DNA of 64,000 bases, taken from NCBI GenBank assembly GCA_902728285.1, contig CACVBU010000893.1, positions 149,863-213,862 of the forward strand, in the 5' to 3' direction. The DNA is from Clytia hemisphaerica. Its lineage: Eukaryota > Cnidaria > Hydrozoa > Leptothecata > Clytiidae. A program made the translations under genes and the position numbers. Positions 3,405 through 62,100 of this stretch are shown here, piece after piece (the stretch's first letter is position 1; each line of letters begins with the position of its first letter). The notes under the pieces were generated by a model, which saw only the letters and a list, made by a program, of their open reading frames with translations, made no database searches and had not been told where the DNA came from.

Positions 3405-3433
3405 ACAGTCCAGACAATCTGACAATGTCTGTA

Positions 3434-12379: not shown

Positions 12380-13013
12380 CAGTATGTGGCCCCCAAAACG
12401 GCGATCAAATTTGAAATTTCTCTCAAATCTAGAGAGAAAGAGATTTTACAAAAATTTTTGCTGCATGAAATAACATCTCTACTTTATTTCCTGGAAGTTC
12501 TTTTTCAAAATTTTCAATTTCAACAATATTTTTCAATCGCTTAAAGATAGGTAGCTTTTTTCTAATGGCCCCCAAAACGGAGGTTTGAAATTTTAGCGAT
12601 TTCTCGAGATATCTTTAAGATATGAATACAAAATTTTGACCATAGTTTTGAAATATGATTTAGAGGGTTTTGGGCATAGATTTATTTGATAAAATTTTTA
12701 CAGTATACCCCTGGTTGTCAAAATGCAGGTTTGGGGCCCCAAAACGGAGGTGTAGTTAAAATCAAATTATTAGGCCCAGTGGTAATAGGGGGAAAAACTA
12801 TGAACATATTTGTGTTTCCCATTAAATTTACGACCCGATGGATGTAAAATTTATGATTTTTATGAAATATTTCAAGATTTTCGATATTGCAAAGTCCAAA
12901 CTGAAAATTTAGAAATTTTCAAAATGACAATTTTGATTTAACAACGTCTTAATCGAGTTTTTGAAAACAAATCTCGTTTTGGGGGCCGTCTCCGTTTTGG
13001 GGGCCATATACTG
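12380..13013. mobile_element. TA-flanked MITE, TIR CAGTATATGGCCCCCAAAAC
   Basis: CAGTATGTGGCCCCCAAAAC at the left and its inverse at the right are flanked by TA (12378-12379 and 13014-13015). GGCCCCAAAACGG recurs inside at about 12566 and 12738. A truncated relative lies at 40785-41630. The TA site suggests a Tc1/mariner-type mobilising enzyme. It fills the space between the HECT pseudogene and the integrase gene. Confidence 0.72.
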
Positions 13014-13506
13014 TATTCCCGAAAAATTCTTCAAAAAAATAGGAAATCTATAAAACCTCGAAATCGTAATAAATATCCAATTTTCAGCATATTCTTCTCG
13101 CCTGTTAATGCAGGGGTCTTATTTTGGCCCGGCGAACGGCGAATTTCGCCGGCCTAACGACCAGTGGCGTTGTGGGAAAATTTTTCTGGATGGGCCAAAG
13201 TCAATTTTTTTCAAATGGCGCCCCCAATTTCCCACTAGTTTCTGAGCTTTTATTACTAATTCGTTTGCCTAGGCATAATGAGGCAGGAAATATTTAATGG
13301 ATAAGAGTAGATATATTTATATAATTATTTCGTATATGCGTGCTATAACGATGTATGCTAATTACTACCATAGTTTGAAACGAATTGAACTTGAATTTCA
13401 ACTCAATTAGTTCTTCCGATATTCGAAAAAAACGAGCGACTAAAATCAAATTGTCATTTCTATGGCCCTCTGTAAGAATCTGCAAAAAATATCGATTCCA
13501 AAACTA

Positions 13507-15604
13507 TCAGAGGGACTCAAAACATTTTGTTCGTTCGTTAAGAATCCGTATAACCTGATCTTGATCAAGTATTTCAGGGATTCTCTCTGGATGTATTCCA
13601 TCATTATCATCATCGGTTGGTAGTGGTCCATTGAAATCGACTCCAAAATAATCATCAGCAAAGTCATCTTCTTGAATAGGTCGATAGTTCATTTGACCTA
13701 GAATCCACAATTGATTTGGCGATCGATTTGCAGCACTTGAAAGGGAATGTTGATCCCACCCGGATTTGAATAATTCAAGATGTCTATTAATTCTTGGTAA
13801 AAAGACAATTTGTAATACCTGCATGTGAAGAGAATTCGATATATCAAGAATATCGGTGTTCTCCATGTACCAAAAAGCGGTGTAATAGGTGGATAGACAC
13901 GAAGTAAAAACATCCCTCCAGAGACGTTCTATTCGTTGATTATGACAAGACTTCCCGGCAATGAAACTCTTACGACCCGGGCCACGCAAAACATGGTTGA
14001 GCATAAATCTTGCTACTTGAACATTTTCCACTCCCTGGTCAGCTCTAACTCGTGATGGTAAACCAAAGTTACCAATTGCTTTCAAAAACAAAGACTGTAC
14101 AGATTCTGCTCGATTGTTATTGTTACACTTTAAATACATAATTTTGCGTGAAAAACCATCAATGCCGCCATGAACAACGAATCCCCATCGGATCAATTTG
14201 TGGTTGCCGTCTATGTGCCACAATGCAAGTGTTCCGGGTACATTGTAGACACGACGACGAATCAACCTCCTATGGATGGATCGATTTAAAATACCTTCTG
14301 GGTCTGTTCTCCACAAAGAAGCACGAACTCTCTCCCATGTAACTCTGATACCATTAGCTGTAAGGTGTCCTTTCATTGTTCGAATACCAGAGCTCGGAAA
14401 ATTCATTGTTATTCCTTGCACCATCGTGTCTAGTTCATCATCTGTTATATCAGTATACCTATTGAAACGCAGTCCAAATTCATCCATTCTACGTCGTATT
14501 GTTTGATCAGAAACACCAAAAAGCTTCGCAATGTCTACCTGTTTAAGGGCTCTGACCATAGTGAATTTTTCATAATTGCCGTGTTTAAAATGTGTTTTCT
14601 GACTGATGTAACCAACAAAACTATGGCATGTTATACATTTTCTGTTAGACAAACTATTCCTGAATCTGAAAATTCAAAAATTGCATTGAAAAAATTTGAT
14701 GAAGAAGAAAATGAAGACTTTTGCGAGAAAGAGTATTTCAACTTTGAAGAGCTTAGTTTCGGCGAAGAAAAAACATTTTGAAAAATTTTTCGCAGTAGTT
14801 GGTGTATCTTTTACCGAACAATAAAAACTTTTGCGGAAAATTTTTGTAAATGCTTCTTTGTCTCGAAATCTTCAAAATAGTGGTTTTTCGTCAATTTTTC
14901 ATCTGGATTTTGCTTAAAAAAACAGTCATAACTTTTGACACATCTTTTTAGAAAAATTTTCCGCAAAATTTAAAATAGTTCAATCCTTTGCGGACAGTTT
15001 GAAAAAAGTTCGAAACAAAAAGGTTAATTACCCATTAAAACTTAGCACTTTTCATAAAAGAAAGTGATGCAACATATTATTAACGTCTTTTTAAAGTTCA
15101 TAACCTCATTTTTGCAATTAAGTTCTTAATTACTCTTAAGGGGTTTGATTAAAAAGCAATTTATAAAGGCAATTCTTTGTTAAAAGTATTAAAGAATCTA
15201 AAACATAACTTTTATGTTCAGATACTAAAATCAATTTTCTGACTATGGTCAGAGCCCTTAAAACCATTTTCGAGAAAAAATATAAGTTGTTCTTCTGAAA
15301 CCTTGACGCGTGGTCTACCAACTTCTCCGGTCCTTTCTAAGGTTGGCAAGTTTCTCTCCTCATCACGATTGTCTCGAATACAACGCGTCATAGCCCTCCA
15401 GGCAGAGTGAAGTGAATCCAGTATTCCTATCTCAAACCCGTAAACGATACATCCTTGTATCACGACATGGATCAACTGTTCTATACCATCTAGATGAAAC
15501 TCCAAAATATTGATATTTTCATTCTCTTCCAAAGTTGTATAAATTCTGTTGACATTTTCTTCTACAAAACTCAAAAAGACTTCACGTGTTCTCAGTTGAG
15601 CCAT
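13507..15604 (-). pseudogene. DDE integrase-core gene interrupted by a TTAA-flanked insertion
   Basis: Coding parts are 15604-15258 (ATG at 15604-15602) and 14542-13507, about 460 residues if joined across the insertion at 14547-15257. The first part is a helical N-terminal region; the second opens with a helix-turn-helix ([16 protein letters not shown]) and then the rve/DDE core. Visible catalytic residues are D in [12 protein letters not shown] in [10 protein letters not shown] (56 residues later) and E in [10 protein letters not shown] (36 residues later). Proteins of this architecture are abundant in cnidarian and fish genomes and look like DNA-transposon or domesticated integrases; which of these I cannot say. 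All DDE residues are intact, and no TIRs of its own were found. As it stands the insertion breaks the frame unless it is spliced out. Confidence 0.78.
14547..15257. mobile_element. 711-bp TTAA-target element inside the integrase gene
   Basis: Perfect 16-bp inverted ends GGGCTCTGACCATAGT are flanked by TTAA on both sides (14543-14546 and 15258-15261). TTAA targets and clean removal are the hallmark of piggyBac-type elements. Removing the insert and one TTAA joins FLENGFK directly to QVDIAKLF in one frame. The interior is AT-rich with no transposase; a short acidic plus-strand open frame (14588-14781) is not recognisable. The TIR starts with GGG, whereas typical piggyBac ends start with CC, so the exact superfamily is open. 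Confidence 0.85.
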
Positions 15605-15782
15605 TATTATCAAAAAGAAAATTTTAGAAAAAACGGTGTGTAGTCAAAGCATACGAATATATACAATAAACAGACCAGACAAGCCAAATTAAAGACCCAA
15701 AAGGACCTGGGGTCTAGTAAAAATAATATTAGAATGTGTACCATCAATTAATTATTGGCCATTATTAATTCAATCGATATAC

Positions 15783-16130
15783 GAGTTGACTATCAAATTG
15801 AAGATTGAACTATCAAATTGAAGAGTCGACTATCGAATCGAAGGATCAACTATCAAATTGGAGAGACGTTTATCGAATCAAAGCCGGCTGTCAAATTGAA
15901 GGGTCGATTTGTCAAATTGAAGGGTCGATTTGTCAAATTGACAAGCCGACCATCAAATTGAAGGGTCAAATTGACAAATTGAAGGGTCGATTTGTCAAAT
16001 TGAAGGGTCGATTTGTCAAATTGAAGGGTCGAATTGACAAATTGAAGGATCGATTTGTCAAATTGAAGGGTCAAATTGACAAATTGAAGGATCGATTTGA
16101 CAAATTGAACCATCAAATTGAAAGGTCGAA
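15783..16130 (+). repeat. Minisatellite (TCAAATTGAAGGGTCGA units)
   Basis: About twenty degenerate units based on TCAAATTGAAGGGTCGA, alternating with TTGTCAAATTGAAGG variants, run from 15783 to 16130. Units become most regular between 15890 and 16080. The array is open in a forward and a reverse frame, giving low-complexity predicted peptides that I do not regard as genes. It lies just upstream of the integrase start. Confidence 0.85.
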
Positions 16131-16200
16131 TTTTGTAAGGTATCTAACTTCATAAATATTTATCAAATTATTTATTTTGATTCATAATAAAAGCTTTTTT

Positions 16201-16480
16201 GGACCTATTTTAAGGGGGTCCTATAATTAACATGTGTCCGTCCGTCCGTCCGTCTGTTATTAGGTTTTCTCGGGATTGGCTCATTAGTTTTTCAGATCTT
16301 TTTTTCACAATGATGCAAATCATAATGCCCAAAATGTGACGAAACCCGATTTTTTTTTAGGGGGGGGGGCAATTCCAGCCAAAAAAACAGCTAAAAAGGG
16401 TTTTTTGGATTTAGTAGAAAATTGGATCATTTGTCCTGATTCTTTCCTCGAAATTAAGGTACCATCATCGGTAAAAGCTG
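16201..16480 (+). mobile_element. Partial copy of the GGACCTACC-ended repeat family
   Basis: It starts GGACCTATTTTAAGGGGGTCC, followed by ATAATTAACATGTG, tandem GTCC/GTCCG units and CTGTTATTAGGTTTTCTCGG. The same order, forward or inverted, occurs at 31536-32560, 55438-55563 and 58898-61267. Similarity can be followed to about 16480; the far end was not found. The next 700 bp hold nothing I recognise. Confidence 0.65.
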
Positions 16481-17171
16481 GTTGAAGCAGATTTTCATAA
16501 AAAAAAAAATTGAAAAAAAATTAATCTTTATCCATAGGATTTAGATTATAAGCATACATGCATTAGCCAAATTACTCAATTTTTTGATGAGATAGATATT
16601 TTTTTCATTCCAATCCCCTCCCTTAATACCACCCCAATTCAAGAAACGGACTCCCGAGAGAAAAATCGAGGTTTAGTCAAAGTCTTTGGTTTAGTTAGCC
16701 GATGAAAACTTTGGAGAGGATAAGTTTTGTCATCTGCCTAGAGATGCTTTGATAATTTTTTTCATAAAAAAAAAAAGTTTTGGAAAGAGTATTTTCCCAT
16801 TTTCTACCCATCAGAGGAAAGAAGCCTAGTTTTGCGATTCTTCTTGATGAGAAGAATGCAAAAAAATTTAAAATCAGGTAAAGTTTTTGCCAGGGAAAAA
16901 TGAAATTTGGGAAAGCTCTGTCGTGTGATGAAATGTTGGCAGATTTCTTTGACGGGGGAAATTGTATGTCACTCCTTCACGACTTATTTTGTAATGAAGC
17001 TTTTCAACCTCTGATCTTTGTAAATAGCTGTAAAAATTGAACAACGAAAAGGAGCCCTAATTTTCTCTTCGATGCTCATTAGATGAACATTCGTATAACG
17101 ACAACGATAAGCATGAATCAGAATTTAAAGTCGTCTCCAGTTACTATTACCCAGTGTTTATAGTAAATTTA

Positions 17172-17504
17172 CACACCCCTGTCTCAGCTACCTACCCGGT
17201 TAGGTTTGGGTTTGATTTTGAGATCACTAGGGTAAGAACGAGGGATGTGAAAATCCCGGAATGGGAGTAGAAAAAAGTAGATTTTCCCGTTTTCGCCGGG
17301 GTAGGATAAAAATCTTCAAGCTGGTTGACCGGCAATACAATTATTGACCGGAGTAAGACCATAACTTTCCCAGTTCTGATCGAGGTAGAGAATTATAATC
17401 AAGTTTGACCAGGTTTACTCTTTATCCTACCGGAAGTTAAAATTGAGCCATTTTTGGCAATTTTTTTGTCATCGGGTGAATCTGACCGGGTTAATGATAC
17501 AGGG
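17172..17504. mobile_element. TA-flanked MITE, TIR CACACCCCTGT
   Basis: Inverted ACACCCCTGT ends are flanked by TA. Several ACCGG/CCGGT words inside occur on both strands (about 17195-17500), extending the pairing. No coding sequence. Confidence 0.5.
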
Positions 17505-18013
17505 GTGTATGTCTTCTTCTTAAAAAAGCAAATCTTACGGCAGAAGTGGAGGCCTTAAGTAATGGATCAAATTTGCAAAAGAAATGCCAAGCATGTTATT
17601 TTTCACCGAGTTTTCTTATCCGAGTGTCAAAAAATTAATGCTATTTTTACACGAAACTAATAAATAATATTGCAATAAAAAATAACTACGTAAAAACAAT
17701 AATAACTGTTTGTAAGTAGTTCCACTTTCAAAAGATCATCTTGATTGCGTATCAAATATGATATGTCGTCCAAGGTCCTTGAATTATCGCAAAATTCCAA
17801 AAATTGATTTTCTAAATTGGATTGATTCGTAAACAGTGAAATATGAGTAAAACAGTGACAGTAAGTAAAAACTGCCTTAAAAAGCCTAAAATACCCTAAA
17901 AGCAAAAGTTATTTCGTTAATTTTATACAAAAATTATCTTAGAATCTAAAAAAAAGAACGCTTAGTATAATCTAAAAGAGTCTTCTATCCTAATTAATTA
18001 AATTTGTATAAAA

Positions 18014-30209: not shown

Positions 30210-30797
30210 CAGGGGGGGGGGCACGCAGTTACTACAAGACATGATGTGTAGTAAGTGCTTTTTCAACACTTTTTTTCAGGACCACCACCCTTTGCAGTTA
30301 CTACACCTTGGTAGTAACTGTTTTCAGAAAAGATTTCCAGGTACCACCCCTGTTTTTGAGTGATATCATCAAAAACATGCTCGAAATTACCCTAAATTGC
30401 AATTATTTTTCAACCTAAAGCCATTTTTGTGCTAGATTTTCTTTTAATTTACTTGTTTAACAGCTGTTGAGAACATTTTAATGATAATTAGGGAAAGCAT
30501 AATTTCAAAGTTGGGTCTGAGAAAAAAAATTTTTTTCGTCCATTTAACAAAAATATTTTTTTTAACAAAGAATTTTTTCACCAAAAAATTCATTTTTGGT
30601 GAAAAATTTTGAAAGTTCTTTAAAAAGAATTAAAATATAAGCACTTACTACACCAAAAGTGCTAGCGTTAGTGTTTGGCACCACCCCCAAACAGCAGTTA
30701 CTACACTGTGTAGTAACTGTTTTCATAACTTCTGAATACAGTACCACCACGGTAGTAAGTGTCATACTGTCTTGTATTAACTGCGTGCCCCCCCCTG
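30210..30797. mobile_element. hAT-like MITE, copy B, with 8-bp duplication
   Basis: It begins CAGGGGGGG and ends CCCCCCCTG. The inverted subterminal blocks GCACGCAGTTA.TACAAGACA match. The exact 8-bp direct repeat CACTTGTG flanks it (30202-30209 and 30798-30805). This is the cleanest copy and supports hAT assignment for the family. Confidence 0.8.
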
Positions 30798-31535: not shown

Positions 31536-32560
31536 GGACCTACCTGATGATGAAAGTTAGATAGCAAGGCGAGGTGAAAAATGAAAAAAATCAGTCAGAA
31601 AATATAGCGCTTAGCAAAAATGCATAACACAATAAATTCATCATTGATTGTTGATGGGGAGGGGAAGGGTTGTAGGGAAAAAATAAATAGAAAGTTCTGG
31701 TGGCAAAAATCAGTTTTATTGACAATTGAATCATGCTTGATGGTGAGCATTGTTATCAATAATGTTTTTGTGTGAAAAACATAGAAATATAAGGAAAAAA
31801 TCCAATGAAAATCTGCAAAAATGGCGATTTCCGGCATTTTCAACCGGAAAAAGTTTTTTTCTCAAAAATTTAACTCGGCCATGTTTTGAGCATTGCAAAT
31901 ACGCATCTTTCTGCAAAAAATCAATGTTTTTCCAAAATCAGGCTCCGTTACATTTTAGGTATTGTCCTTTTGCATCAGTGTGCAAAATTTCTTTAAAAAA
32001 ATATAAAGTACAGCTCGAGAAATTCAAGAAATACGTTGTCTTTCCAGCAAAAATAGGTTGTCCCGGCGATTTTTAAATAGTTCTGGCTTCAAAAATCAAT
32101 TTTATTGAAAATTGAAACATGCTTGATGGTGGGCATTGCTATTAATAATGTTTTTTAATGAAAAAACAACCAATTATAAGGAAAAAGTCCAATGAAAATC
32201 CAGAAAAACGGCGGCCGGAAAAAATTTTTTTCTCAAGAATCGACTCGCCCATGTTTTGGGCATTGTTTAAAATATGCATCTTTGAGCAAAAAATAAGAAA
32301 AAACTAATGATAAAATCTCGAGAAAATGCCAAAAAAACAGTTTTTCTGGCATATTTCCGGCATTTTCAACCGGAAAAATTTTTTTTTCGAAAATCGGGCT
32401 CCGTCACTTTTTAGGTTAATCATCATTTTGCATCATTGTGCCAAAAAACAGAAAAAAGTTATGAGCCAATCCCAAGAAAAGCTGGTAACAGACGATCAAA
32501 CAAACGGACGAACATGGGTTAATTTAAAGGACCTCCACAGGGGTACCCGGAGGTAGGTCC
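31536..32560. mobile_element. GGACCTACC-ended element with internal tandem duplication
   Basis: The left end is GGACCTACCTGATGATG and the right end is CCCGGAGGTAGGTCC. Inside, a block of about 370 bp is present twice (from about 31735 and 32110), sharing CTTGATGGT..CATTG, AAGGAAAAA.TCCAATGAAAAT and CCGGAAAAA.TTTTTTTCTC. Near the right end are AACAGACGA.CAAAC, GTTAATTTAAAGGACCTCC, the inverse of the order at 16201 and 55438. No transposase is seen. Confidence 0.65.
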
Positions 32561-32606: not shown

Positions 32607-33755
32607 AAATGAGGCCTGGAAAACCTGAGTTACAAAAACTTGAGTTACAAAAACTCGAGTTACAAAAACCCGAGTTACTACAAATGTGACGTCATAAGTC
32701 TCAAATTATGACGTCATAATCATTTTGTAACTCAAAAAAAGTTGATTTTGTTTATCTATCTAACTTGATTTTTTTTTGCAGGTTTTGGTTTTCGAGCTGC
32801 CAATGCTATTGATTAACTAAAAATTGATTCACTTGAAAACTGCAGGAGATTCGAAGGGCACATTTTTTTTGTCAATTCTACACCCTATAGGAGCATAATA
32901 TCAAAAATTTGCACTGATCTAAGGGGTACCCTACGAAAACCATTTTTAAGGCCTTTTCTGAATCTCGGACGCTGGTCTAATAATTCATTATATGATTTCT
33001 TTGTGCAACATCAAAAGGTCATAACGCAATTGTGAATATCTTTTGATTGAGCGAAAACATAGAGAAACTGCATGGTCTAGCGAACAAAGATTATAAAGCA
33101 CCATTTGTAAAAAGAAAAAGCCTACTCTGAAATTTTTGGCTAACTTGGTCGCTCTTAAGATTGTTCATGTTAAGTAAATTGCAACCTCATTCCCGTGTAT
33201 ACCAGGCTTTATTTACCTTACTGATTGACGCCAGAGAATGCCCTGGTGTTGGCTGATGTGAGCTCCCCCTCTCAGAGGGGATCTTCTCAAAACGATATGT
33301 CATAACAAAATCTGACGTTACAAAGTTACACTGCAATGCGATGGTTTCAAATCCAGGAACAAATAAAATCTGACGTTTGTTTACGTAATCTTACGCGTTC
33401 GAAAAAAGACAATGCCAGAGTATTATCTAGCGCTATCAGTAGGCATAAAAAAGCTGATAATATGCAGGGACCGATGTTGTGTAAATTGAACATTCATTTT
33501 TCTTTTTCTTTTCGAGTTACGTAACTCGAAAACATAATTTTGGAAAAAAATTCGAGTTACATAACAACGGTAAATAACTTTTGAGTTAAATAAAAAGTCC
33601 CCTTTTATGATGTCACATTCGTTGTAACTCGGGTTTTTGTAACTCGGGTTTTTGTAACTCGGGTTTTTGTAACTCGGGTTTTTGTAACTCGGGTTTTTGT
33701 AACTCGGGTATTGAAACTCGAGTTTTTGTAACTTGGGTTCTCCGGGCCTCATTTA
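32607..33755. mobile_element. Foldback element with 15-bp tandem repeats in its TIRs
   Basis: Left arm: ATGAGGCC(T)GG followed by about 3.5 units of GAGTTACAAAAACCC, then ACAAATGTGACGTCATAA. Right arm: the inverse, with about eight units (33620-33735) and the same ATGTGACATCAT inner edge. Arms differ in unit number, as Foldback-type elements do. TA-like sequence flanks both ends but does not align exactly. The long minus-strand frame of SYKNP repeats is the array read in one frame, not a gene. The interior has no transposase. Confidence 0.75.
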
Positions 33756-34540
33756 TGGGTTGAGAGGTTTTGTTATTTTAAAAGCATTACACTAAACCCT
33801 CTAATAGATCCTGGTCAGTAAGATACCAAAAAACTAGGTGAGTAGGTCAAAATAATAAAGTTTAAGTTATTTTATTGCTATCTATCACTGGTCAAAATTT
33901 AAAGTTCATAGCATTTTCAAATCATTAAATTTTCGAAATTTTACTAAACAAGGGGGGGACCTAACTGCTGAGGGGTTGGAAATTGTACATTGGAAAACCC
34001 AAAAATAAGGTAAATATAGGCTAAAATCAGGCTATTTAGAGAAAAATAAGGGACCTTCTCTTTGACAGCTGGAAATATGCTTAAAAATTAATAAACGGGG
34101 GGTCCTAATAAGGTCCGGGTGGGTTGGAAAATTAACAAGCGGAAGGGGGCCGTTTATTTGGAACCTAAGAGTAGCCCTATCTTTCTTCCAAAAATCAGAG
34201 AAAACTAATGAAGCAATGTCGCACACAAAGTCCAAAAAACCTTATTTTTAGGCACTTTTTGGCCCAAATTTCCCCAAAAAAATTTCCTTGAAAATCAGGC
34301 TCACTCCCTCCCTCAAGCAATGGCTAGGGTGTGCTTTTAAGTAGTGTACTTTTCACTAATAGCTAAGCAGTAAGATAAAAATTAAACGACTAGAAATTGA
34401 TCTACTATCAGGCTATCGTGTGGAGTGTCTACATAACCTTTTCGCCAACAATTATAACGAGCAGACTGGAGATGAAATGGTAACGCGCCTAGCAGTGTAG
34501 ACCTAACTCTTAGAAGATCTTTCAAATTCAGTATGTGAAT

Positions 34541-35613
34541 CGGTTTGTGTAAACCGCAGGTTAAAGGTCACAGGTTACAGGTCAGTGATGACAGGTTGAC
34601 TCTAATCAATGTCATTGCAGAGGAAAATGTTTTGAAAACACAAAGAATTAACAAAAACATATAAAACCGTTTCAAACATCAAAATTTAACCATTTTATCG
34701 ATCTTTCGCAGTTTGCGCCGTGTATAACGCAGACCAGAAAATATTTGAAACCATATTATACGTATAACAGGTATATTACATATTGTAATGTTTGTAATGT
34801 TATATGATGGTTACATATAACAAAACACGTCGCTCTAAAACTACCTTCTCAGAGAAATCACGAGCTTCTGATTGGTGTAATTTTATATCCAGCCATATTG
34901 TTATCATCACATTCGGTATGCTAAATATTTTTGGTGTTTTTCTCTTGTAAGACATGATATTTTGTGATTCTGTCAATATTTTTGTCAAAAATTGTCATTA
35001 AAGCCATTGACCTTTTACATAGTTATAATGTATGTTGATTCAGCAGATTGAAATAAGTAGAATCTTTTGTAATGAATAAAGAAAAATGTGGAGCAAGATT
35101 TTTTTCTTCCTTTTATTTACAAATTTGAAAGGACTCTTTTATTAAAATTTTGCTGACATCAGTTTCAGACGAGTCGGGTGTATATATAACACTGTATCAT
35201 TCCTTTAAAGTCATTAAAATAACAATTGAATGATTAATTAGTTTCTAAAACCACTCTCTTAGGGACCTCACAAGCTTCTGATTGGTGCCGTTTTATATCC
35301 ATTCACACTATCAACATCACATTTTGCATGATAAATATTTTCCGTGCTTTTGTCTTGTTAGGCATCATATTTTATGATTTTGTCATTATTTTTGTAAGTA
35401 AGTGTCACTAGGTTGTTTTTCTATTCAATTGTCATTTTATAATATCCAAATAACATGTGTTACTTTTTTGTAATTTAATGCGTTATGTATTGATGTTATG
35501 TTATGTATATGTTATGATCTTATTATCTTTTTTCGGTCTGCACTTTGTTGACCTGTAACCTGTGACCTGTGACCTGTAACCTGTAACCTGTAACCTTTGG
35601 TTTACACAAACTG
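34541..35613. mobile_element. Foldback/MULE-like element, 7-bp tandem repeats in TIRs, 10-bp duplication
   Basis: The ends C(G/A)GTTTGTGTAAACC are inverted; behind each lie CAGGTTA/CAGGTCA 7-mers (about four at the left, six or seven at the right). The direct repeat GTATGTGAAT flanks the element exactly (34531-34540 and 35614-35623). A 9-10 bp duplication fits Mutator-like elements. Internal blocks near 34850-34950 and 35265-35390 are direct near-copies (TCTGATTGGTG, TTTTATATCCA, CATGATATTTT). No transposase gene. Confidence 0.78.
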
Positions 35614-38808: not shown

Positions 38809-39928
38809 ATAGCCAAGCAAAATAAAGTTATAATAAAGTAATGAAAGTAATTAACAAGTGTATTGTAAAAATTAACATTCTAAAGATGTCAATTTCCAAC
38901 TGGTCACTATGGGGAAATATTAACCGGCCACGTGACATCAATTATCCAATCAGTTTTCTCAAAAATGATTGACAGTTGTATTGCAGGGCTATAATGACAG
39001 GTACCGACCTAAAAACTAACATAACGATTTGCAAATTACTACTGGTACTGCGCGGTGCAGAAGTAGCCAGCGGAGAGATTTTTTAGAAATATGTGTTCTT
39101 ATCTTCTAGGAGATCACATGTTATTATCTTCAAATTTTTATACAAATGATGTGTTCTGATTTCTAGGAAACCTTTATTGCACTATTTGTCTCCCTAAGCT
39201 TTTCACCACTTTATGGTTTGATGTTTTCTACAAACTAGAAAAAACAATTTGCCAAGAAAAACTTGTAAGATATTTGCTTTTCTCCACGAAAGATATGTTC
39301 TGAAGCTTTATAGGGTTACCTAGACCACAAGAACACGTTAGATGACTTTGATTATACTTCTGTCTCGTCAGAGCACATCATTATTTCGAAGATCTGATCA
39401 GAACAGATCAAAATTTCTACTCTAGCTGAAATATGCTCTCAGAACACATCGGAAAAAAGGTCGCCTCGTCGGCTGCTTTCGACTGAGGTCACGTCAGATT
39501 AACTTTTTATCGAGAGCTGTACAGAACCCCTAATAATCTTTGAATATATCTTAATTTTTGAGAGCTGTTTTTCAGGTAAAAATCGTTTACATACACACAA
39601 AGCAGCCGTCACTAGCGACTTGTCAAAGTATGGAGGGCGATGAAAAAAATTTATCAGCAGACTTTGCGAAAGCAAGTTCAAAAGCTTGAAATCAATGGGA
39701 TGGTGGTCCAAATAAAAATCTATAAAGCCTGATAAGGGCGACATAACGTACTTTGGCTGGACTGTGTACCCTGAGTATCAGAGGTTAAGTTTTCAAAGAA
39801 TATATTAACCTCTGAAGACCAATGATTGAAATTTTATCGCGCATGTGTCAATCTAATCACTGTAGAAAGAATCAAAGATGAAGAGCAAATATTACCTTAA
39901 TGTCTAGCAGACTGTAAACGAATTCCCC

Positions 39929-40538
39929 AGAAACCTCCAAGTGTAATTAAAATGAGTTTCTTTCGAAAGAAATCTTTTACATGATCCCCAAATGTATAAC
40001 AGTAATTACTAAACTTTTAATTATGGAAATGTCACTTTAATTGAATCGAAATAATAGACAGACTATATGTTATGATTCTCATCACTGACTCTTTTTAAAA
40101 AGCATTGATGATATTTTTGAGTTGTGTTTTCAACGACGGGAATAAAAATGTCAGCTTTGAACTTCATCCAAGATCTTGGATGGTCGTCATGGTTACTTTT
40201 CTCTGCGTTGATTGCGCGCTGGAATAGAATCTCAGAAACCTCCAAGTGTAATTAAAATGAGTTTCTTTCGAGAGAAATCTTTTACATGATCCCCAAATGT
40301 ATAACAGTAATTACTAAACTTTTAATTATGGAAATGTCACTTTAATTGAATCGAAATAATAGACAGACTACATGTTATGATTTTCATCACTGACTCTTTT
40401 TAAAAAGCATTGATGATATTTTTGAGTTGTGTTTTCAACGACGGGAATAAAAATGTCAGCTTTGAACTTCATCCAAGATCTTGGATGGTCGTCATGGTTA
40501 CTTTTCTCTGCGTTGATTGCGCGCTGAATAGAATCTCG
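39929..40538. repeat. Tandem duplication of a 305-bp block
   Basis: The block from AGAAACCTCCAAGTGTAATT to GCGCTG(G)AATAGAATCTC is present twice head to tail (39929-40233 and 40234-40538) with very few differences (for example GAAAGAAATC versus GAGAGAAATC). The near identity implies a recent event or an assembly duplication. The identical minus-strand open frames in each copy have no recognisable content. Confidence 0.85.
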
Positions 40539-47056: not shown

Positions 47057-50000
47057 TCAATGACCACCACCTTTCTTTGTTGGCAATGGTGGAGGTGCAC
47101 CGTCAGCCTCATCCTGTAACAATAAAAAGAAAACAGCATTTGAAACCCCGCCTTGAAAATTATTTCAATCTGGTAGGACGAAAAAATAAGGGTTCTCTAA
47201 TAGTTACACCGATGAAGTAAGTACTCCATGGATGGGGGTCCATGTTTTCAACTGATCCCAATTTTTAAGTCATCTTTCAAGGTATTTGGGTTGAAGTACA
47301 TGCTTCATACCTGCGGCGGCTTTTTCCCTAAAAAATATTTTTGCAATTTTGCCCCCAAATAAATTCGTCGCTACACCTATATGACGAGTTTATTTACCGA
47401 AAAAAGAAATATAAAATGACTGAATAGCCGGTACTTTTTGGACTTGCTTTAAGGCCGCTACCCACTCAGCATTTTATGGTCGGCGAACAAGACACACGGC
47501 TCGGACGTTTTGGTCGCTGAACGCTTTTCCCATTCCACTGATCCAAAATAAAGGGGACATATGCTGCACATTTTTCTTTTTTCTATTGTTGATATTTTTT
47601 TGCACATGGTACAAGAGAGTTAAATGTCTCTTTTGATTGGTTAATTAAAAAAGAACAATAGGGAAGCTGCACAGCTTAGCGAAAAAAGTTGAAAAGTTTC
47701 AAATCTTGTTGCGCTCAAAGCGACAGCCTTTGAAGGCTTAATTTATGTAATTCATGCAATAATTAAGCCATGCGCCTTGTTCGCCGACCATAAAATGCTG
47801 AGTGGGTAGCAGCCTTTAGGCGTACAAGCTTTTGCGAGCTTTTGCTATTTTCATTCTTGCCAACTAAATTCCCTTTTGGTTTACCCTTTCCTCAAATTTG
47901 TATGCCTTAAAAGTATAGGGCTATTCCTTAGGACCCGTAACAAGAATAGTATTTTTAGAGACAATCTTTTGATACGGGAATACGGAAATTTGAAGCTTAA
48001 ACCCTGTTAGACTTAGAGCAGTTTAGAGGAAATTTGACGTCAATCGAATTCAAACCTTTGATTGTCGTCCATTTTCAACGCACTTTTTCCCCTTAAAGTT
48101 ATGTCGGCAACGTCAGTCTTCCGACCGTGAAAAGTCTTTACGGGGCTAAATTCGCATACTCAAACTCAAAAACGCCTCAAAATGCGTAGACTAGCAAACT
48201 AGTCTGTTAATTAATCATGTCCAGGAATCAATAAATTATTTTCGTGATTTGGTTTATTGCGGTATATAACTTGTGAAAAATAGAAATCATTGTCTGGAAA
48301 ATCGTAAAACTCGCGGAACTTCAAAGGTTCCATGTTTTGTCACAAACAAGGAAATACAAAACAATGGGAATGTGTTTCATACAAATTCGGTCCAGCCAAA
48401 GGCCTGAATTATTGCGTGTCAGAAAGAAGAGATGGGAGCGGAAAAGAAGAAACTGATTATCAAAGAAAAACATTCGAATATTTCCCCAAATTTTCGTGAC
48501 AACCTTATAAAAATAAATCACGGAAAACGTGAAGCCAGACCAAGAACTGCCAAGAAGGGAAATCATTATCACGAAAGGAAACTTGTAAATATTTTATTGT
48601 GACTAGTTTTTGTACATATAATTTAAATGTTTTGAGTCCTCCCGACTGGCAGGGATGTTCTGGAATTTTTATAAGATACTTCAGTAATTGGTCATTTGAA
48701 GTAATAAAAATGACGCATTCTTTAGAAAAAGCAATAAAATTGTTGTATTACTGGTTAAAGACCAACCAAATCAAGAAAGAGCTTGTAAAAACTCCAGCTT
48801 GTCCCGACTGGCATTGGAACCCTTAGAAGAGGAATTGAAATCGGGAGGCAAGCCGAAATTGGTGTCGCTACAAAAAGGATACCTGTAAAAGCGGATCATC
48901 TCTGTACCTTTCATTAGTCTAGGTATCCCCGGTGTAGCTTAACCCCCTGCAAATGTTGACTCTTCTAATCAAAATTAACAAGGACCCGTAAATCTGTACA
49001 TCCAGTGCCCTTTTAGCGTTCCATTAGAAGATCAAGAAAGATCGAGGAATGGTTAAATCTATAGACTGAACAATAGCCTAGCAAACAGAGAGAGAGTTTT
49101 CGAAACATCAAAGAAACTTTAAACCATGAGGTGTGCAATTTGAATGCAAAAAACCTACATTTGATTCCTCGTCTTCTCGAGTTGGCTCCAAAGAACTCGT
49201 GGATCCAAATGGCATCGGAGGTGGCACTGCTTGCGGCCGCGGGCTCGCTTGGGGTGGTAACGTTTTAGAGGACTTTTGCGGAATAGCTGGAGCTTCTTCA
49301 TTTTGTAGCTGTTGTGATGGCAAGGGTGGTTTGGGCGGTAAAACTGGCGAACCTTTCGCATTGCCCCTATAAGGTCTTGGCGCAGCTGGCATGTTGGGTG
49401 CACGTCTTGGGATTTCAAGAGGTGGTTGTGGACTGACGTCACGTGATGGCATATTGGGAATTGTATCGTAGCCTTGACGTGGTGAAGGCGATGGACCCTT
49501 CGGTGGTAATGGTGCGGGTAGCTGAAGGGAAAGAAAACACCAGGTTAAATGTTTATGTTTCCCCATGTTGAATCTCTCTAATATGATTTCAAGGAAACAA
49601 AAGTTTTCTTCGAATTCTAGAAAGATTCAGATTCAGACGGGAAGTATTTTATACGACTTTCCAATTATTCATTGATAAAATCAATACTAATCATTTCATG
49701 CTTAATGTGACCCTCAAAGGTATCTATTCAAATATAAATTTGTGTTTAAGGGGTAATAATGAGTAAGAATAACGTGTCTTTCTAAAATTTACCCAAAGCA
49801 TGAAACACTTACCGTATTTGTGGAGCCACTGATAGAATTGTTTGAAGGTGACTTGTTCAGTGTTCGTTTATCACGCCCAGGTAAAGGTGGAGGCGGGGCG
49901 TTACTATCCGTTGGCGTTAAATCAAGATTGGGTGGTGAAATCATTGAGTGGATTGGTGAACTCGGTCCAACGATTGTAGTGTGGCGGTTCGATCTTTCAC

Positions 50001-50104: not shown

Positions 50105-53100
50105 CTGATTAAAATTAAGAAATAATTATTTGCCAATCTTTCAAAACTATTGTGTACATTTTCTACGAAATCATTGATTTTTTTTATTGTTCGGAATAAT
50201 TAAATGGGGATTCTGACACTTCTAGCCCAAAGGCCGAATAAATCAAGTAAATTAAAATTTTAAAAGTTATCTTTCATCATAAACAAAGTAAATAGTACAC
50301 TACTCCGAGTTTCATGCTTACTGCACTTGTCAAATGTACAAATAAAATGAATCTGTTTTGAAATTCTCATTTAAAAAGCTAAAAAATGTTAAAAAGTTGA
50401 AATAATTAGTGCGATAAAAAATTGATGTGCGTATAAAAGGGTAATAAAAGGTAGATAAGTAAATTACTGTAACGTTTTAACGTTTTCATGTTATATATTT
50501 GTGGGAATTTAAGAAAAGTCGATTCTCTCGAAAGGAATACTTATACAAAGGGGGATACTACTAACCCAGTCATGTCGAATTCAGAACGTATTCTTCTTGC
50601 GACAGGAGCCTGGGCAGCGAAGCCATTCTCTGAGAATATGGTGCGCCGATTGTGAATTTCATTCTACAAATAAATATGCAAAAACATAACATTTAATTAA
50701 GATCTGTTAAGATTGTCAGTTTTTATAAATCAACTTTGAATTTCAAAATCTAGAAATACGATATCAAATTAATTTAGTAGGACGGCCATACATGGCCCCT
50801 CTATTAACTCTATAGGGGGTATTTAAAGTAGATAATGTCCAATTTGTGGAGTCTTCTTTGAGTGGCAACCATCAAATAATCGGGTTAACTAATAACGCGG
50901 CTAGAGCAAGAAAAAGGTCATATCATTCTCCGTAATCTTCCTCATCTCGTTGGAAACAAAAAATAACAATTTTTTGTAAAGAAGATCTTGTTTGCGATTT
51001 TTCATTGTGAAAGGATTCAGAAGACATTGGCTTGAAACTTCAGCGAGGCTTCGTTCGTGTTCAAATGTATTCGATTTGCTCAGATAAAAACTTTCATATT
51101 CCCGAAAGACAAAATAAATCAAGCGGTAAAACGCTACCTGTTTCTTTCGATAAGGAGCTGCTTTAGCTTTATTTTCTTTCATCAGTTTTTCCATTTTCTC
51201 GTGCAGAGGTTGTAATTGAGGTGTGACTACGCCCTTGTGTATTTTCAACCCTCTTTCACAGTGATCGACCTAAAATAACAAGAATACATTACAAATGATT
51301 TCTATGAGAACAAAGTATATCAGAACATAAAATTTTGAGACTAAATATAAAAGAACATAAGAGCATCTCAAGGCTTTATGGGATCTACAACATGCAATTT
51401 ATTCGAAAATTACAGCAAAATACTCAAAAATGCAGGAGAACATTTTAAAACCAACAAAAGTTTCAAAACCTTTCGATGTTCTTATAAAAACAGTATATTT
51501 CATTTGCTGAATGGATGAACTCAAGTACGATCTACTACCGTTAGCCAGTATAAAGTGACTGTTCACGTTTGCTAACGTTTGCGGACTTATCAGCAATAAA
51601 AAACGAAGAGGTTTTTCAAAGTCAGTAACGTTCGAAGAGAAACCACGAAACTTCAAGTAAAACATAAGGGTTAAAAGTAAACATAAAGAGTAGTAATTCC
51701 AAAGAGGGTGGTGCACAGAAGGTGTATCATGTCCGAAAGAGTGTCGAACGAAATGAAAAACATAGTACCTGTTCAACAATGAGGTCTTTGATTTGGTCGA
51801 TGTACATAGAATGTTCAGGATTCAACTCCATGTAGTCTCGTGAAAAGAAGATCTACGAGAAATTTACACATAGCATGATCAAAATCTAAAATCTAATACA
51901 GATAGTAGTGTTGAGTGTCCCTTGAAAATGTCACCTACCCATCTACAGATTCTACCGATCAACCAAGGCTTGTGAACAAAACCTTATTTATTAAACCATT
52001 TATTTAATCTAGCTTCAAATCGGCTCAGAAATTAGAAAGAAATTAACCCCCTCTTTTGACGAGGTCAATTATCCAGTCAATTATGAGCATTATCCAGTCT
52101 AAGTATAACTAATCGAACAACTTCCAAGCGTCATATTTCAGTATTCTGATTCCGAGCGTTATTTAGCATTCCTTATTGCTTCCGATGAGTCCTTCTTCCC
52201 GTATCTGATCGAGTTAGGTATTTATATATTTTATACACACAGCATATACACTATATTAACACTTCTCTTGTAAGAAGAACCAATATTTTTGGATTTGGGT
52301 CAAATTTCCCTGGATAGTTTCCGTCCGACCTTAGATTGGGTTAGTTTGGCGTGAAACTTTTTTATAAAGTTTACTATGATTAAAAGCATTCGGAAAGAAG
52401 AAAATATATATGAGCAACTAACTAACACACAAAACCTACGTACCTTTTCGTAATTGGAAATGCCACCCATAACAGCTGCATCAATGACACCATTTAACAA
52501 CATAGTGAATGGGTTCAAATCAATCTTGGGGTTGGCTGCGTACCGATTACACATGGTCAATATCTCTTTGTTCTTCATCGTCAATGTGTCAATTGCTGTT
52601 TCTATGGGTGATAGCTCCACCTGAAAATAATCACTCGAATAAAATACTGAAACCTTTAAAGGTCAGAGTTTTATTTCCCACCTTTTTACAAAATAAGGTT
52701 ATGAGGCTTACGGAGAAGCAAATCTCGACATTTCTTAAAAGTGAAACGATTTTCTATTTTCTAAACAATGGAAAGAGAAAAACTTGATGCTTGGTACTTG
52801 TCCCTTATCCCTGAAATTTCCAAAAATATTTGCTTTCCATAGCATATACTTGACGTCAAGGCTATTCCACGTCCACACTTTTTCTAATAATATGTTTAGA
52901 GCATACTTTAAAGATACAAAGCTTTTGCAGTAGCAAAAAAATCGAATTTGCGTCAGAACACTTGAAAAGTTTCTTATTCCCGAAAATCATAAAAGTGGAA
53001 CTCCCAAGAAACGGAATAAAAAAATCCCAGTTTATTGTTAGGCTTATCTTAGCAATGCTTTCCAGAGAAATCATGCTTTATTCAGGGTCCACAACTATAA

Positions 53101-56100
53101 ACTTAAAAAAAGAGAGCTAAAAACTTACAGAACTTCGTGATTTGACTTCGAACCAACGAAGTTTACCAGGGAAACTGTCTTTAGTCGTCATGCTTGTTCG
53201 TTCAATCCATAATGTCTGATGAGAAATCGAGGAAAAGAGAAGCTTTCAGAAACACTATAATCAAATCCTTTGTGTTTGGAGGGCATCTTCGAATTGTACT
53301 AGATTCTTTTTCTAAGCATCCTCAAAAAGTCCGTACCTGTATTTTACATTAGGTAGTCACATCATATCATAGAGTATGATGGAGGGGGAGAGTTCCGTCC
53401 TCTTGAAGCGGTGAAGGCATAAGATAAAAGAGAGCTACTAGGTTTCGCCACTGACGATCGAGGTAGTGAAAGTCGTGGGATCTTAGTAAGTTTACAAATA
53501 TATCTCAATTGGCAACTTACAGCGAATTCATTTTCTTTATCTTTCTTTCCTTTATGAAAAGGACGACTCAATGTGAATTCACTGACATCGTTCACTTCGT
53601 AAAACCTGAAAAAAGGTGGAAAATAATGATTCTGTATTCAGGCCCATTCAATTTATCAACAACCAATCACCATCAACCCAAGTGGAAAATATAAGCTTTT
53701 TATTGTTCCCCATGGTAAACTCAGGAATGGAAGATAGAGTCGATATTTAACATGAATAGCCCAGTAATCTAGGACTTTTAGACGTCCTTGAGATTGTTGG
53801 TCAGCCTAAGCTGAGCATTCAAATAGGTAAAATTCAGTTCCATAAGACGACAAAAAAAAAATCCGATCTTCCGATCTCACTTTGATTTCTAAACTTTCTT
53901 CCGATCGGGTTAACTTTTTGTGTACTTTTAGCGTGCGTTGTTTTTACAGATCATAATGTAGTGTTTCAAGATGGCAGCTCAAGCGATATAAGTCAGATGT
54001 GATAAGTCAGTGTTGTACCAAAGTATTTCCAGTGTAAATCTGTTGCAAGCTTCAATTTCTGACATTTATTTTTTTAATTCAGCAAATCAAACACATGATT
54101 TTCATCAAGGGGATTCTTTTTCTACGTCTTTTGAAAGTTTAAAGCCGTTTGCTCAAGTTTTTGTTTATGTTGAATTTTCTGATATTTTTTATTGCTGCTT
54201 TTTAATAGTTTTTGCAATAAAAACATATTTTTCTTGTTTGCCTCTAGGGGATTGATGGTGTTATAATGTTATTGGAATTTGATAAAGTTTACAAAAGTAC
54301 AGCTACTGTATAAATTTGACAAAGACTGGATGCAATCGTGCTTTTTTGGACTTGGACATGTTTGATAAGGCGAATCGTAAAAAATTTTTTGGTTCTCGTC
54401 ATTTCTACTTTAAAAGTGAGAGTCGTTCGTTCGGTTGAAAATATTTTTCTGTTAAGAAGCAGCTACATCTTGTTGAAAGGGAATCCGTGTGGACTGATCC
54501 GAATTTTAAAATTGAGAAACCGTGGATAAACTGGTGTTTTCGGTTTAAATTAGCATGCGGCTCTCTACTTCGATTTGAAAACTTGTTTAAACACAGAGCG
54601 TGCAGAGGTCGACAGTGGAAATCTAGCAAAGCAGCGGAAAAGCTTTCCGACTCTCCAACTCTACCTGCTGACCGTAAATCAGGGTCGGTCAGATGACGGG
54701 AACCAAATGATGACATCACATCTCCTATCATTGGACTTTTTTTATGACAAATGGTCTTTGGAATTTGATCGTTTATATTAATATTAATATATACAGTTCT
54801 TGTTGAAATTGATCAAACTATTTTTCACACAGTTCCGGACGCAGATTGTGTTTTTCTAACCTTTTCTAACCTTGGCGCACGTTTTGACTGAATGATGGAA
54901 TGGAATGAATGGCGATAACAGTTTATATATATCTCTTATCAGACTTGCAGAAAGCGGGCTGGCGTCAAGTTACACAACATGCACACTCTCATCACAACTT
55001 GCACAGCCATAACAAACAGATCAATCTGGTCTTCATTTAACATTGTTTTAAAGTTTAAAAAACACTGCCAGTGCTTGGCACAGAAGAGAGGACTCCCAGT
55101 TGAAATTAATTGCTACACTGCTGCCCTGTTGAATTTATTTGTGTGTTTATTCCGCCAAGGCGGTAAATCAATCGCCCAAATTCATAGACCAATCAAAAGC
55201 GAGTTTAAAGCAAAATGGGGGAAAAATGAGCTTCCCCGCATAGTTATGAATTTTAAGTTTTGCTTTCGATTATCATTTGCGACCAGCAAAGTCTTCAAGA
55301 TGGTTGTGTGCATGTTGTGTAACTTGACGGTACTAAACTACAAAATTTATTTACGCAGACTGGATGCAAATTGTGTTTTACAAGATTTTGTGATTTTGCT
55401 TCAAGTGCAAAGTAGGACAATGATCAGTCACATTTTTGGACCTACCTGGAGGTCCTATAAATTAACCTGTGTTGGTCCGTCCGTCCGTTCGTCTGTTACC
55501 AGCTTTTCTCGGGATTGAATCATAGGAATTGTTCATGTGTTCATTTTTCATTCAGGTAGGTCCATAAATGTATCACTTGTTTTTAATGGAATCGCAGAAA
55601 GTTACGACAAATGGCTTTTTGACTTTGAATAATTAAAAAACTAAACAATTTGTTCAACAGTTCTGGACGCAAATTATGTTTGCCTTGACAAATTTTGGCT
55701 TTGACTGAATAGCAGTCAGTTTTTACGTACCTCATTGAGTAGTTGTATTTTAATGACCAACCAGGTCATTCATTTGAGGGCTATGCATGTTAGCCTCCAC
55801 TGATGCAAGTTACCCGATCTCACGGTATGAACTACGTTTTGCAAAGTTTTTGATGCAAATTGTGTTTTTCTGGAGTTTGCGCTTTGTGACTTAAAGCTTG
55901 TATGTAGCTTGTTAGTTGAAAGTTTTATTGGAGTTTTATCAAGTAAAACAAAAAGTACAGTTTCTATGGATATTTGATGGATATCTTTATTTTGGTTCTG
56001 ACGTTTTGGCAATTTTCTTATTTATTTTTAATAAAACTTTGGTCAGATAATGGATTGTCTACCTTAAAGGAAGAAATTTCAGAGGGAATTTAATTTGGCG

Positions 56101-59100: not shown

Positions 59101-62100
59101 TCTCATTAAAAAATTGAGTAATTTGGCTAATAACATTGATGTATGCTTATTGATAGTGATTCTTATAAATAAAGATGCGTTTTTTGAGCTGAAAAATTCT
59201 TTTTTCACAAAAATCTGCTTGAGCCATCTTTTACCTACTTTCATGTAAAAAATCAGAAAAAAACAATGATCCAATATTTCACAAAGTCCAAGAAACCCTT
59301 TTTTTAGCCGTTTTTTGGCCCAAATTTGCCCATAAACATTTTTTTTCAAAAATCGGGCTCCGTCACATTTGAGGGTTTAAAGTTATGCATCTTTGTGCAA
59401 AAAATCATAAAGAATGAAAGAGCCAATCTCGAGAAAAGCTATTACCTAAGTAATTGATAATGTGCTTATAAAAAATATCGAATTTGGCCAGTTTTTCTAT
59501 AAAAACACGCTAAGCAACCAAAATTTCATGTCTAAACACACATACTCTCTAAAAGTAAGCCCTCATGAGCAAAAAAAACATCTATCTCATAAAAAAATTG
59601 AGTAATTTGACTAAGAACATTGATGTATGCTTATTAATAGTGATTCTTATAGATAAACATGCGTTTTTTGAGCCAACAAAATTTTTTTGCAAAAATCTGC
59701 TTGAACCATCTTTTACCTATGATGGTACCCTACTTTCGTACAAAAAATAAGAAAAAATTAATGATCCAATTTTTCACAAAGTCTAAAAAACCCGTTTTTT
59801 AGCCGTTTTTTGGCCCAAATTGGCCCGAAAATTTTTCGAAAATCGGGCTCCGTCACATTTTGGCCACCACCATTTTGCACCTTTGTACCAAAAATCAAAA
59901 GATTCCTATGATTCAATCCTGAGAAAAGTTGGTAACAGACGAACGAACGGACGGACGGACGAACAAACACAGGTTAATTTATAGGACCTCTATGAGGGGG
60001 GGGGGTTCGGCTCATAATGCCGGTCCGGACTAGTCGTCGTGGGTCGGGGCGGCGCCCTTCGAGAGTCGTCGTCCGACCAGGAAGTCGTTGGGAGGGACAT
60101 CGTGGGAGCCTCTCTTTCATTTTATCCGTCCTCAATTTAAATCTAACTAATTAATCTGGTCTTTAAAATATTGGTGCGTCGTTGGCCCGCCGTCCCTCGA
60201 GAGTCGTCGTCGGTCCGCCGTCCCTCGAGAGTCGTCGTCAGTCCACCGTCCCTCGAGAGTCGTCGTTGGTCCGCCGTCCTTCGAGAGTTGTCGTTGGTCC
60301 GCCGTCCTTCGAGAGTCGTCGTTGGTCCACTGTCCTTCGAGAGTCGTCGTCGGTCCGCTGTCCTTCGAGAGTCGTCGTTGATCCACCGTCTAAAGGCTAA
60401 ATGAGTCTTACAAGCTAGTTTATCACACTTCTTTCTTTCGAATCTGAGCAACCACGAGACAAGACAAAAATAGACAAACAGAAACTGCTAAATTCACAAG
60501 ACATCGTAAAGAGCTTATTGGGGAATAAAGTACAAAGTATAACGCAGTTTTTTAGAATGTCAATATAGAAAGCGGGAGACAGTTCAAATTGAATCAAAAC
60601 TTCTTTTGTTCTTCTTCTTTAATTACATACGAACAATCCCCTCAAAAGAAATCATTTATATTACTTAAAAAAACAAGTTATATATAAGGTTTTCTTTTTT
60701 TGAACCTTTGGGTTCAATCTTAAGGTAAATTGTTGGGCTTGGCACGGTCCACATGGTTTACATGCAGACGCCGGATGAGAATTAAAATTTACCAAAAACA
60801 AAGAAACCGCTAGATTCAATCAATCTGTCATCTAAAAAACACTCTAAAAATGAAACATGCCTCTTTTAACCCGACGACTCTCGAAGGACGGCGGACCAAC
60901 AACGACTCTCGAAGGACGGCGGACCAACGACGACTCTCGAAGGAAGGCGGACCAACGACGACTCTCGAAGGAAGGCGGACCAACGACGACTCTCGAGGGA
61001 CGGCGGCCCAACGACGACTCTCGAAGAATATGACAGATATTTTAAAGACCAGATCTAATTAATTAGATTAAATTGAGGACGAATAAAATGAAAGAGAGGC
61101 TCCCACGATGTCCCTCCCAACGAGTCCCTGGTCGGACGACGACTCTCGAAGGGCGCCGCCCCGACCCACGACAACCTTCGAAAGTCGGTGACCCGACCCA
61201 CGACGGCTAGTCCGGACCGGCATTATGAGCCGAACCCCCCCTCATAGACCTCCACCGGGGTAGGTCCAAAAAATGTAGTGTTTCCGGAAACCGGCCGGGT
61301 GAAAGTAAATTTTTTTCTGACCCGGCCGCAAACTCGTTAGTAGTTGATACATTAGTATTCAGGGCTTACTTCATACTGTTTGTACATAAAAGTTATCTTT
61401 AAAGTTCTATTTCAATGATCTTAAGTTATCATAAATAGCATAATAAAGATTTTTTCCGGCCGGCCGCATGAGAGCTTTTTTCTTTCACCCGCATTCCGGA
61501 AACACTACATTTTTTTTATTTTCGCCTGACAACCAATTTTTCCGAAGGTTTTTAGCAAATTCCCATTTTCCAGAGGGTATCTAAACATTCTAAAGGTTTG
61601 AAGGGGTTTGTCCGACTCTTGTGTATGGATATTAACTGAAACAGTCCAATCCAAATCTCTTTCTACTTCTAGCGTTTTATGATTTATAGGCGTTTTCGGC
61701 GGAAAAGTTTGGTCTTCCAATCATTCTTCCGATAAGCATACAAAAGGTGGGGACGTCAGATAACTTTCTTGTAGTAATAAAGCAATAAGAATACCTTCAA
61801 GATTTCTGCATGCTGAAGGAGAGTGAACGCAGCCTCTGTAAAGTTTTGTTGGCTGAGATGAAGGTCACATAATTTGTAAAGGTATCTCTGTTTCATGTCT
61901 TCACGCCTGATCTCTTGGTAGAAATTCTAAGAAAATATTGATCCATAATTTTGTAAATCAGACCTATGATTCAACTATCTGTAAGGCGTTTCGCAAGGAA
62001 TAAAACAATTTTATAGATAATTATAAATGCCATAAATGACATAAATGCCCCATAAATGAAAGTAGTCAGAAAATAGACCATTAAAATTCATCAAACAGTG

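Follow-up and report, generated by a model that had tools for sequence, protein, structure and literature searches.

The window analysed here, a 64-kb stretch (64,000 nucleotides) of the genome of the hydrozoan Clytia hemisphaerica, contains at positions 59991-61246 an exactly delimited element of 1256 bp that starts with TATGAGGG and finishes with CCCTCATA (Table 1). Read from either end towards the centre, the element has a terminal segment some 40 bp long, then 32-bp units (one on the left, two on the right), then about 100-110 bp of inverted sequence that is mostly non-repetitive, and lastly an array of 28-bp units; a loop of 481 bp separates the two arms. The tandem arrays resolved by TRF are in opposite orientation, with units that are reverse-complementary to one another, so that the first-pass annotation of this DNA, which had described terminal inverted repeats (TIRs) made of 28-bp units in unequal numbers, was correct on this point, the arrays being the inner portions of the TIRs.

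Table 1. Features of the foldback element, its flanks and the transposase frame of the same window (window coordinates).
Feature	Position	Strand	Remarks
rva_4 transposase frame, second to that on C77	13507-14673	-	388 aa stop to stop, uninterrupted; Pfam rva_4 E 5.5e-79
Left flank, invaded repeat	59701-59990	+	homologous to 32287-32545 and, inverted, to 55433-55529
Target-site duplication GACCTC, left copy	59985-59990		single in two paralogous empty sites
Left terminal segment, TATGAGGGGGGGGGG...GGACTA	59991-60032	+	inverted counterpart at right end, minus three G
Left outer 32-bp unit	60033-60064	+	homologous to array unit
Motif TTCGAGAGTCGTCGT	60058-60072	+	68 bp from left end; begins inside left 32-bp unit, overruns it by 8 bp
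Remainder of left outer arm	60065-60176	+	motif end, then mostly non-repetitive; inverted match on right
Left 28-bp array, consensus CGTCGTTGGTCCGCCGTCCTTCGAGAGT	60177-60390	+	TRF: 7.6 copies, 90% matches
Loop, left part	60391-60490		94% match to C77 left inner segment, L026:1141-1235
Loop, right part	60490-60871		match to C77 right inner segment, L025:6850-7017 (76%) and 7149-7313 (92%)
Right 28-bp array, inverted	60872-61026	-	TRF: 5.5 copies, 94% matches
Right outer arm, mostly non-repetitive portion	61027-61143	-
Two right outer 32-bp units (61144-61175, 61176-61207)	61144-61207	-	intact motif 97 bp, degenerate motif 65 bp from right end
Right terminal segment, final letters CCCCCCCTCATA	61208-61246	-
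Target-site duplication GACCTC, right copy	61247-61252
Residual end of invaded repeat, CACCGGGGTAGGTCC	61253-61267	+

The inverted matches between the arms extend over 153 nt at 92%, 108 nt at 96% and 74 nt at 88% identity, and in a gapped alignment of the outer arms 176 of 182 positions are identical, the right arm having one 32-bp unit more. The ungapped TIR score of the element is modest (12/16) because the G-runs are unequal, 10 versus 7. The arms have a GC content of 52-65%, and the loop has 32.8% compared to 35.2% for the whole window; the earlier argument that a deviating GC content points to an active partner elsewhere is weak, given that only the arms are GC-rich. All open reading frames of at least 60 codons in the element enter an array, with the exception of one 67-codon frame in the loop, and Rfam returned zero matches at gathering scores for the 64-kb window. 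The raw folding energy of the element is -450.4 kcal/mol. These observations confirm that 59991-61246 is a real, well-delimited, non-coding element of foldback structure. Foldback denotes a structural type and not a clade; what defines the type, long TIRs with tandem repeats whose copy number varies between arms and between copies, is present here.

The element lies within another repeat, as had been proposed from the letters alone. When the flanks were joined minus one GACCTC, matches across the junction were obtained at 55433-55529 (85%, 109 columns) and at 32287-32545 (72%, 267 columns), and since each of these two paralogous places carries GACCTC once, the proposed duplication and restored empty site were both upheld. 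Three further longer matches of the joined flanks (59234-59438, 16236-16486 and 34163-34302) stop short of the junction. The host of the insertion is thus a dispersed repeat with paralogues in the window, and the insert lies about 20 bp from the repeat's GGTAGGTCC end; where the repeat finishes, a short inverted-repeat stretch (61268-61515) adjoins it. From the window by itself, a 4-bp duplication (ACCT flanking CTATGAG..CTCATAG) could also be read, and it is the other copies of the family, described below, that settle the reading at 6 bp.

A scan of the whole window for pairs of TA..TA ends with an exact 6-bp duplication, an ungapped TIR score of at least 11/16 and a length of up to 3 kb yielded four pairs: the element itself (12), 3432-3704 (13) and two that scored 11. 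The pair at 3432-3704 delimits a small element with TACACTTTTTTTTTAT ends and the 6-bp duplication TGTCTG, a second TA..TA/6-bp candidate in the window. Two other elements have inverted minisatellite arms and different ends: at about 32609-33752, 15-bp units (GAGTTACAAAAACCC) are present in 3.9 left and 7.9 right copies, with outer ends ATGAGGCCYGG, and at 34541-35613 tandem 7-bp units of the ACCTGTA type occupy both arms (the right by TRF, the left by eye), with the TIR CRGTTTGTGTAAACC and a 10-bp duplication, GTATGTGAAT, of Mutator-like length. The elements at 30210-30797 and 5257-5798 have CAGGGGGG ends and duplications of 8 bp (CACTTGTG) and 7 bp (CCTTGTG), respectively, and we take them to be hAT-like. 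A 305-bp unit is present in two tandem copies at 39928-40537 (98% matches). Pfam scans of host frames in the window were mostly without matches; a frame on the minus strand (50904-51269) resembles DHR-2 lobe C below the threshold (E 2.3e-4, 21.5 bits versus 26). This domain is characteristic of DOCK proteins, and the match points to a eukaryotic, probably animal, host. A proline-rich frame lies on the same strand at 49108-49626.

The first 160 bp of the element were used as the query for a search of the genome (417,433,876 bases, 951 contigs). With 40 of 116 candidates scored, at least 72 element-end matches were obtained on at least 26 contigs, so that the further genomic copies anticipated by the first-pass annotation do exist. 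Twenty-nine stretches were retrieved, and one later, and two-ended copies were called by a lenient end pattern, by which 10 of the 29 stretches contained no end and 8 a single end. Fifteen two-ended copies resulted, 14 of them inside single stretches (the window's own included) and one on a contig designated C77; a cross pair in stretch L031 (606-3504, 0/6 duplication match) was left out because it spans another pair. The 6-bp duplication is exact in nine of the 15 copies (GACCTC, GGTTAG, GAAATT, CTAATC, CCAGAG, GATAAC, GGTTTA, ATATCG and ATCTTA), matches at 5/6 positions in four (L018, L019, L033 and L040), at 4/6 in one (L036) and at 3/6 in one (L016). Outside the duplication, the base before it agrees in 0/8 and the base after it in 1/8 of the exact pairs other than C77, which had been chosen for their exactness. 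In six of the nine exact copies the first and last base of the duplication are non-complementary, and a shorter palindromic duplication is therefore impossible there. The termini are TATGAGG in the window element and at most of the ends listed; the variants TATAAGG (L016) and TACGAAGG (L040) retain the TA, which the search pattern itself demanded. In public collections, an 18-base TIR pattern occurred at one place in viral_contigs and five in genome_contigs, matches that we rejected as chance, about seven being expected by arithmetic in 257 billion bases. At those six loci the end match covers at most 24 bases, and two further matches to the loop cover 22 and 19 bases; a 24-base array pattern had zero matches in viral_contigs.

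We further analyzed the arrays and their relationship to the outer TIR. The outer 32-bp units can be aligned end to end with the 28-bp unit if a single 4-base gap is allowed, at scores of 37, 33 and 21 compared to maxima of 16, 15 and 14 among shuffled sequences; none of 2000 shuffles, which preserve base composition only, reached any of these scores. This comparison establishes, at the level of sequence, a derivation of the 28-bp array unit from the 32-bp outer TIR unit. The motif YTCGARAGYYGTYGT occurs 8 times in the left and 6 times in the right arm of the element and at no other place in the window, the first copies lying 68 bp from the left end and, in degenerate form, 65 bp from the right end. 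In keeping with the earlier expectation that array lengths might differ between copies, the 14 within-stretch pairs have 1-30 motifs per arm (left/right 8/6, 7/7, 13/14, 8/10, 2/6, 5/7, 8/11, 5/30, 6/1, 4/9, 2/1, 8/6, 7/6 and 1/1). The most unequal arms seen, with 5 and 30 motifs, belong to L021:567-2651, which has an exact CCAGAG duplication. The copy at L031:2028-3504 has just 2 motifs in one arm and 1 in the other, and its ATATCG duplication is exact; it lies downstream of another left end (606) and may be an array-poor form that sits inside another copy. Copies with one or two motifs per arm, including this exactly duplicated one, imply that long arrays are unnecessary for insertion. Concerted evolution within arms was not detected in a test on 7 left and 5 right full units, from which the divergent eighth left unit and the partial right units were left out (mean differences 2.95 within left, 1.80 within right and 2.66 between; permutation p 0.36). 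The array units differ from the consensus at 18 places, of which 15 are transitions and 6 are CpG changes, numbers too small to infer CpG decay.

What the arrays do is a question separate from that of the family. In Galileo, the first transposase site lies about 70 bp from the end, more sites are found in the TIR repeats, and the isolated THAP domain bound them (PMC3688188). By analogy, the arrays of the element may provide additional transposase sites. The competing explanation, that they grew neutrally as minisatellites in a TIR that is palindromic and rich in GC, and play no role in transposition, we rate at not quite an even chance, with the two explanations about equal in weight. Neutral growth is favoured by the wide spread of motif numbers (1 to 30 in an arm), by the transposition of copies that have only one or two, by the lack of arm-specific homogenisation and by the two window elements with different ends that likewise have inverted minisatellite arms. 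Against it, the amplified unit contains the same motif as the outer TIR, located 65-68 bp from both ends, an agreement that may reflect descent only.

The first-pass annotation had also suggested that a long relative with the same ends might encode a transposase of the P/Galileo, MULE or another type. Such a relative was found at C77:7868-29804 (21,937 bp), with TATGAGG ends as in the window element, an exact ATCTTA duplication and arms that are 90% alike over 495 columns. The P and MULE types did not appear among the nine frames scanned with Pfam. Instead, two frames of the C77 element match an integrase-type transposase, rva_4 (L025:4076-4915, E 3.5e-6, and L025:4960-5649, E 2.9e-65), the gene being spread over both frames through an intron or damage. 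A further frame of the element, L025:3-866, has a HECT match barely past the Pfam cut-off (24.1 versus 23.9 bits, 25 residues); the start of this HECT-like frame, a possible cargo gene, is also present in a second long copy on contig C904 (L028:7982-8095). The C77 element also holds an endonuclease and reverse-transcriptase frame pair, the latter frame lying within L026:2006-4688, and because this stretch is absent from the C904 copy it is probably a nested insertion. Starting at its left end, the C904 copy tracks C77, with gaps, as far as the beginning of the HECT-like frame, where the resemblance stops; the 10 kb that follow yielded neither a transposase nor a right end, and the transposase has therefore been seen in one copy only, that of C77.

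The short and the long element are connected through the loop. Loop positions 4-100 correspond to the C77 left inner segment, adjoining the left array, and positions 100-233 and 319-481 to the two right inner stretches given in Table 1 (L025:6850-7017 and L025:7149-7313, respectively), adjoining the right array. The window loop is composed of the left and right inner segments of C77 fused to each other, with an internal-deletion joint near 60490. Judged by these alignments, the window element proves to be an internally deleted relative of a C77-type element. The loop is nearly complete, at 84-94%, in six of the 29 stretches (L015, L016, L017, L021 and L036, loop 4-481; L034, loop 6-449), from which it follows that one internally deleted form has been amplified. 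Movement in trans would give just such an amplified single deletion form.

To which superfamily this family belongs can be judged from its ends, duplication and enzyme. Complete IS3EU families are described as having TA..TA termini always and 6-bp duplications usually, and GingerRoot, which forms one lineage with IS3EU, as having 6-bp duplications and mostly TA..TA (PMC10045372). The present family has TA..TA termini, a 6-bp duplication and a same-ended relative, in one copy, with an integrase-core (IS3/IS481-like) transposase. We consider it likely, at roughly 80%, that the window element is a non-autonomous internal-deletion derivative belonging to a multicopy family of IS3EU/GingerRoot type and of foldback structure, mobilised in trans by an integrase-type enzyme (rva_4) like that of C77. 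It is the ends, the duplication and the type of enzyme that suggest this name. Under this reading, the C77-type rva_4 protein would act as the trans-acting enzyme, the repeated motif would be a transposase site, and the arrays would have been made by slippage or unequal exchange. The single transposase-bearing copy, whose transposase gene may itself be nested and is spread over two frames, the departure from the TAYGG ends of rust families and the poor duplications of L016 (3/6) and L036 (4/6) speak against it.

The single transposase-bearing copy also leaves some room for some other superfamily, described or not, that has TA..TA termini and duplicates 6 bp, in which the rva_4 gene of C77 would be a passenger or a nested insertion: the gene is missing from C904 as far as that copy was read, and the reverse-transcriptase stretch, likewise absent from C904, indicates that nested insertions occur in C77. 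We hold this to be unlikely, since the rva_4 gene lies inside the duplication, flanked by family-specific inner segments, and ends, duplication length and integrase-type enzyme jointly fit the IS3EU description. A foldback of the P/Galileo or Mutator type (FB or Tm1-like) resembles the element in architecture, namely in long TIRs that contain tandem repeats and in arrays of varying length, and in this respect the likeness to Drosophila FB and Galileo that had been noted earlier stands; kinship does not follow, and we regard it as very improbable, because nine of the 15 copies have exact 6-bp duplications as opposed to 7, 8-10 or 9 bp and the long relative carries an rva_4 transposase. Among the Pfam matches of the seven longer C77 frames that were scanned, there was no THAP-domain P-type transposase. 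The same seven frames had no Pfam match to DNA polymerase B or capsid. Polintons possess a gene set and terminal letters of their own; the 6-bp length of the duplication fits theirs, and the C77 element measures 21.9 kb. That the palindrome is an assembly artefact has a negligible probability, given that unit number and sequence are not the same in the two arms, that the duplication and the empty sites are clean, and that relatives are found on many contigs.

The window's own rva_4 frame (Table 1) is about 44-45% identical to the C77 frame L025:4076-4915 over 121 aa and about 56% to L025:4960-5649 over 161 aa. No convincing element ends were found around it (starts 11501-13507, ends 14673-17599): the best 25 pairs with exact duplications had 13-15/20 TIR matches and were mostly AT-rich, and the 14 TA..TA pairs whose 6-bp duplications differed at no more than one position reached 11-13/20. 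The frame has five weak matches in plasmids (30-33% identity, E 1e-3 to 9e-3), three of which are annotated as IS3 family transposase; a search of viral_contigs for related loci gave two pattern matches and zero relatives, and the PDB two integrase matches at E about 0.6. The frame is a relative of the C77 transposase, a relationship that does not imply action on the foldback element.

Foldback transposons give rise to inversions and can be the seed of satellite DNA; those cited here belong to the P or Mutator superfamily or lack a known enzyme. A foldback on IS3EU-type ends would, if true, make the architecture convergent, and the presence in a single genome of a candidate autonomous copy and of derivatives whose arrays differ greatly in length would make the role of the arrays directly testable. 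In a broader and more tentative scenario, which we think possible although somewhat less probable than its negation, an IS3EU-type lineage arrived at the foldback architecture on its own, separately from the P and Mutator superfamilies. It would comprise a form of about 22 kb that carries a HECT-like (ubiquitin-ligase) frame as cargo, together with amplified deletion forms in which the arms lengthen and shorten as minisatellites built of a motif that the transposase binds. Foldback arms may have originated repeatedly in this host, as the two other inverted-minisatellite elements with different ends in the same 64 kb suggest.

Compared to known systems, the family shares with IS3EU/GingerRoot the TA..TA ends, the 6-bp duplications, TIRs of more than 30 bp and, in the C77 relative, an integrase-core transposase. 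It differs in its inverted minisatellite arms and in its TATGAGG ends: IS3EU of rust fungi has 6-bp duplications, TIRs of more than 30 bp and TAYGG ends, the latter given for Pucciniales only (PMC12730594), whereas the fifth base of the window element is A, at variance with TAYGG..CCRTA. Among the papers searched, IS3EU and foldback were found together in PMC8268682 alone, in passages where 'foldback' stands in a reference title and two oyster satellite families are tabled as IS3EU. Galileo, of the P superfamily in Drosophila, has 7-bp duplications (PMC3573991) and a P-type THAP transposase, and Galileo-G has four long direct repeats in a 1.2-kb TIR (PMC3688188). Tetris, a foldback element of Drosophila virilis, has units of about 220 bp and duplications of 8-10 bp, and in the account cited no complete transposase-bearing element was found for it; its TIR is, like that of the present family, composed of a flanking domain and a tandem-repeat domain, with an array unit that shares sequence of the flanking domain (PMC4079207). 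Tm1, a Mutator/foldback element of root-knot nematodes, differs in its duplications of 8-10 bp, mostly 9 bp, and in its asymmetric terminal motifs, and resembles the present family in having composite TIRs with a motif of about 14 bp in varying number and in comprising both MITE-like and transposase-bearing forms (PMC3169594).
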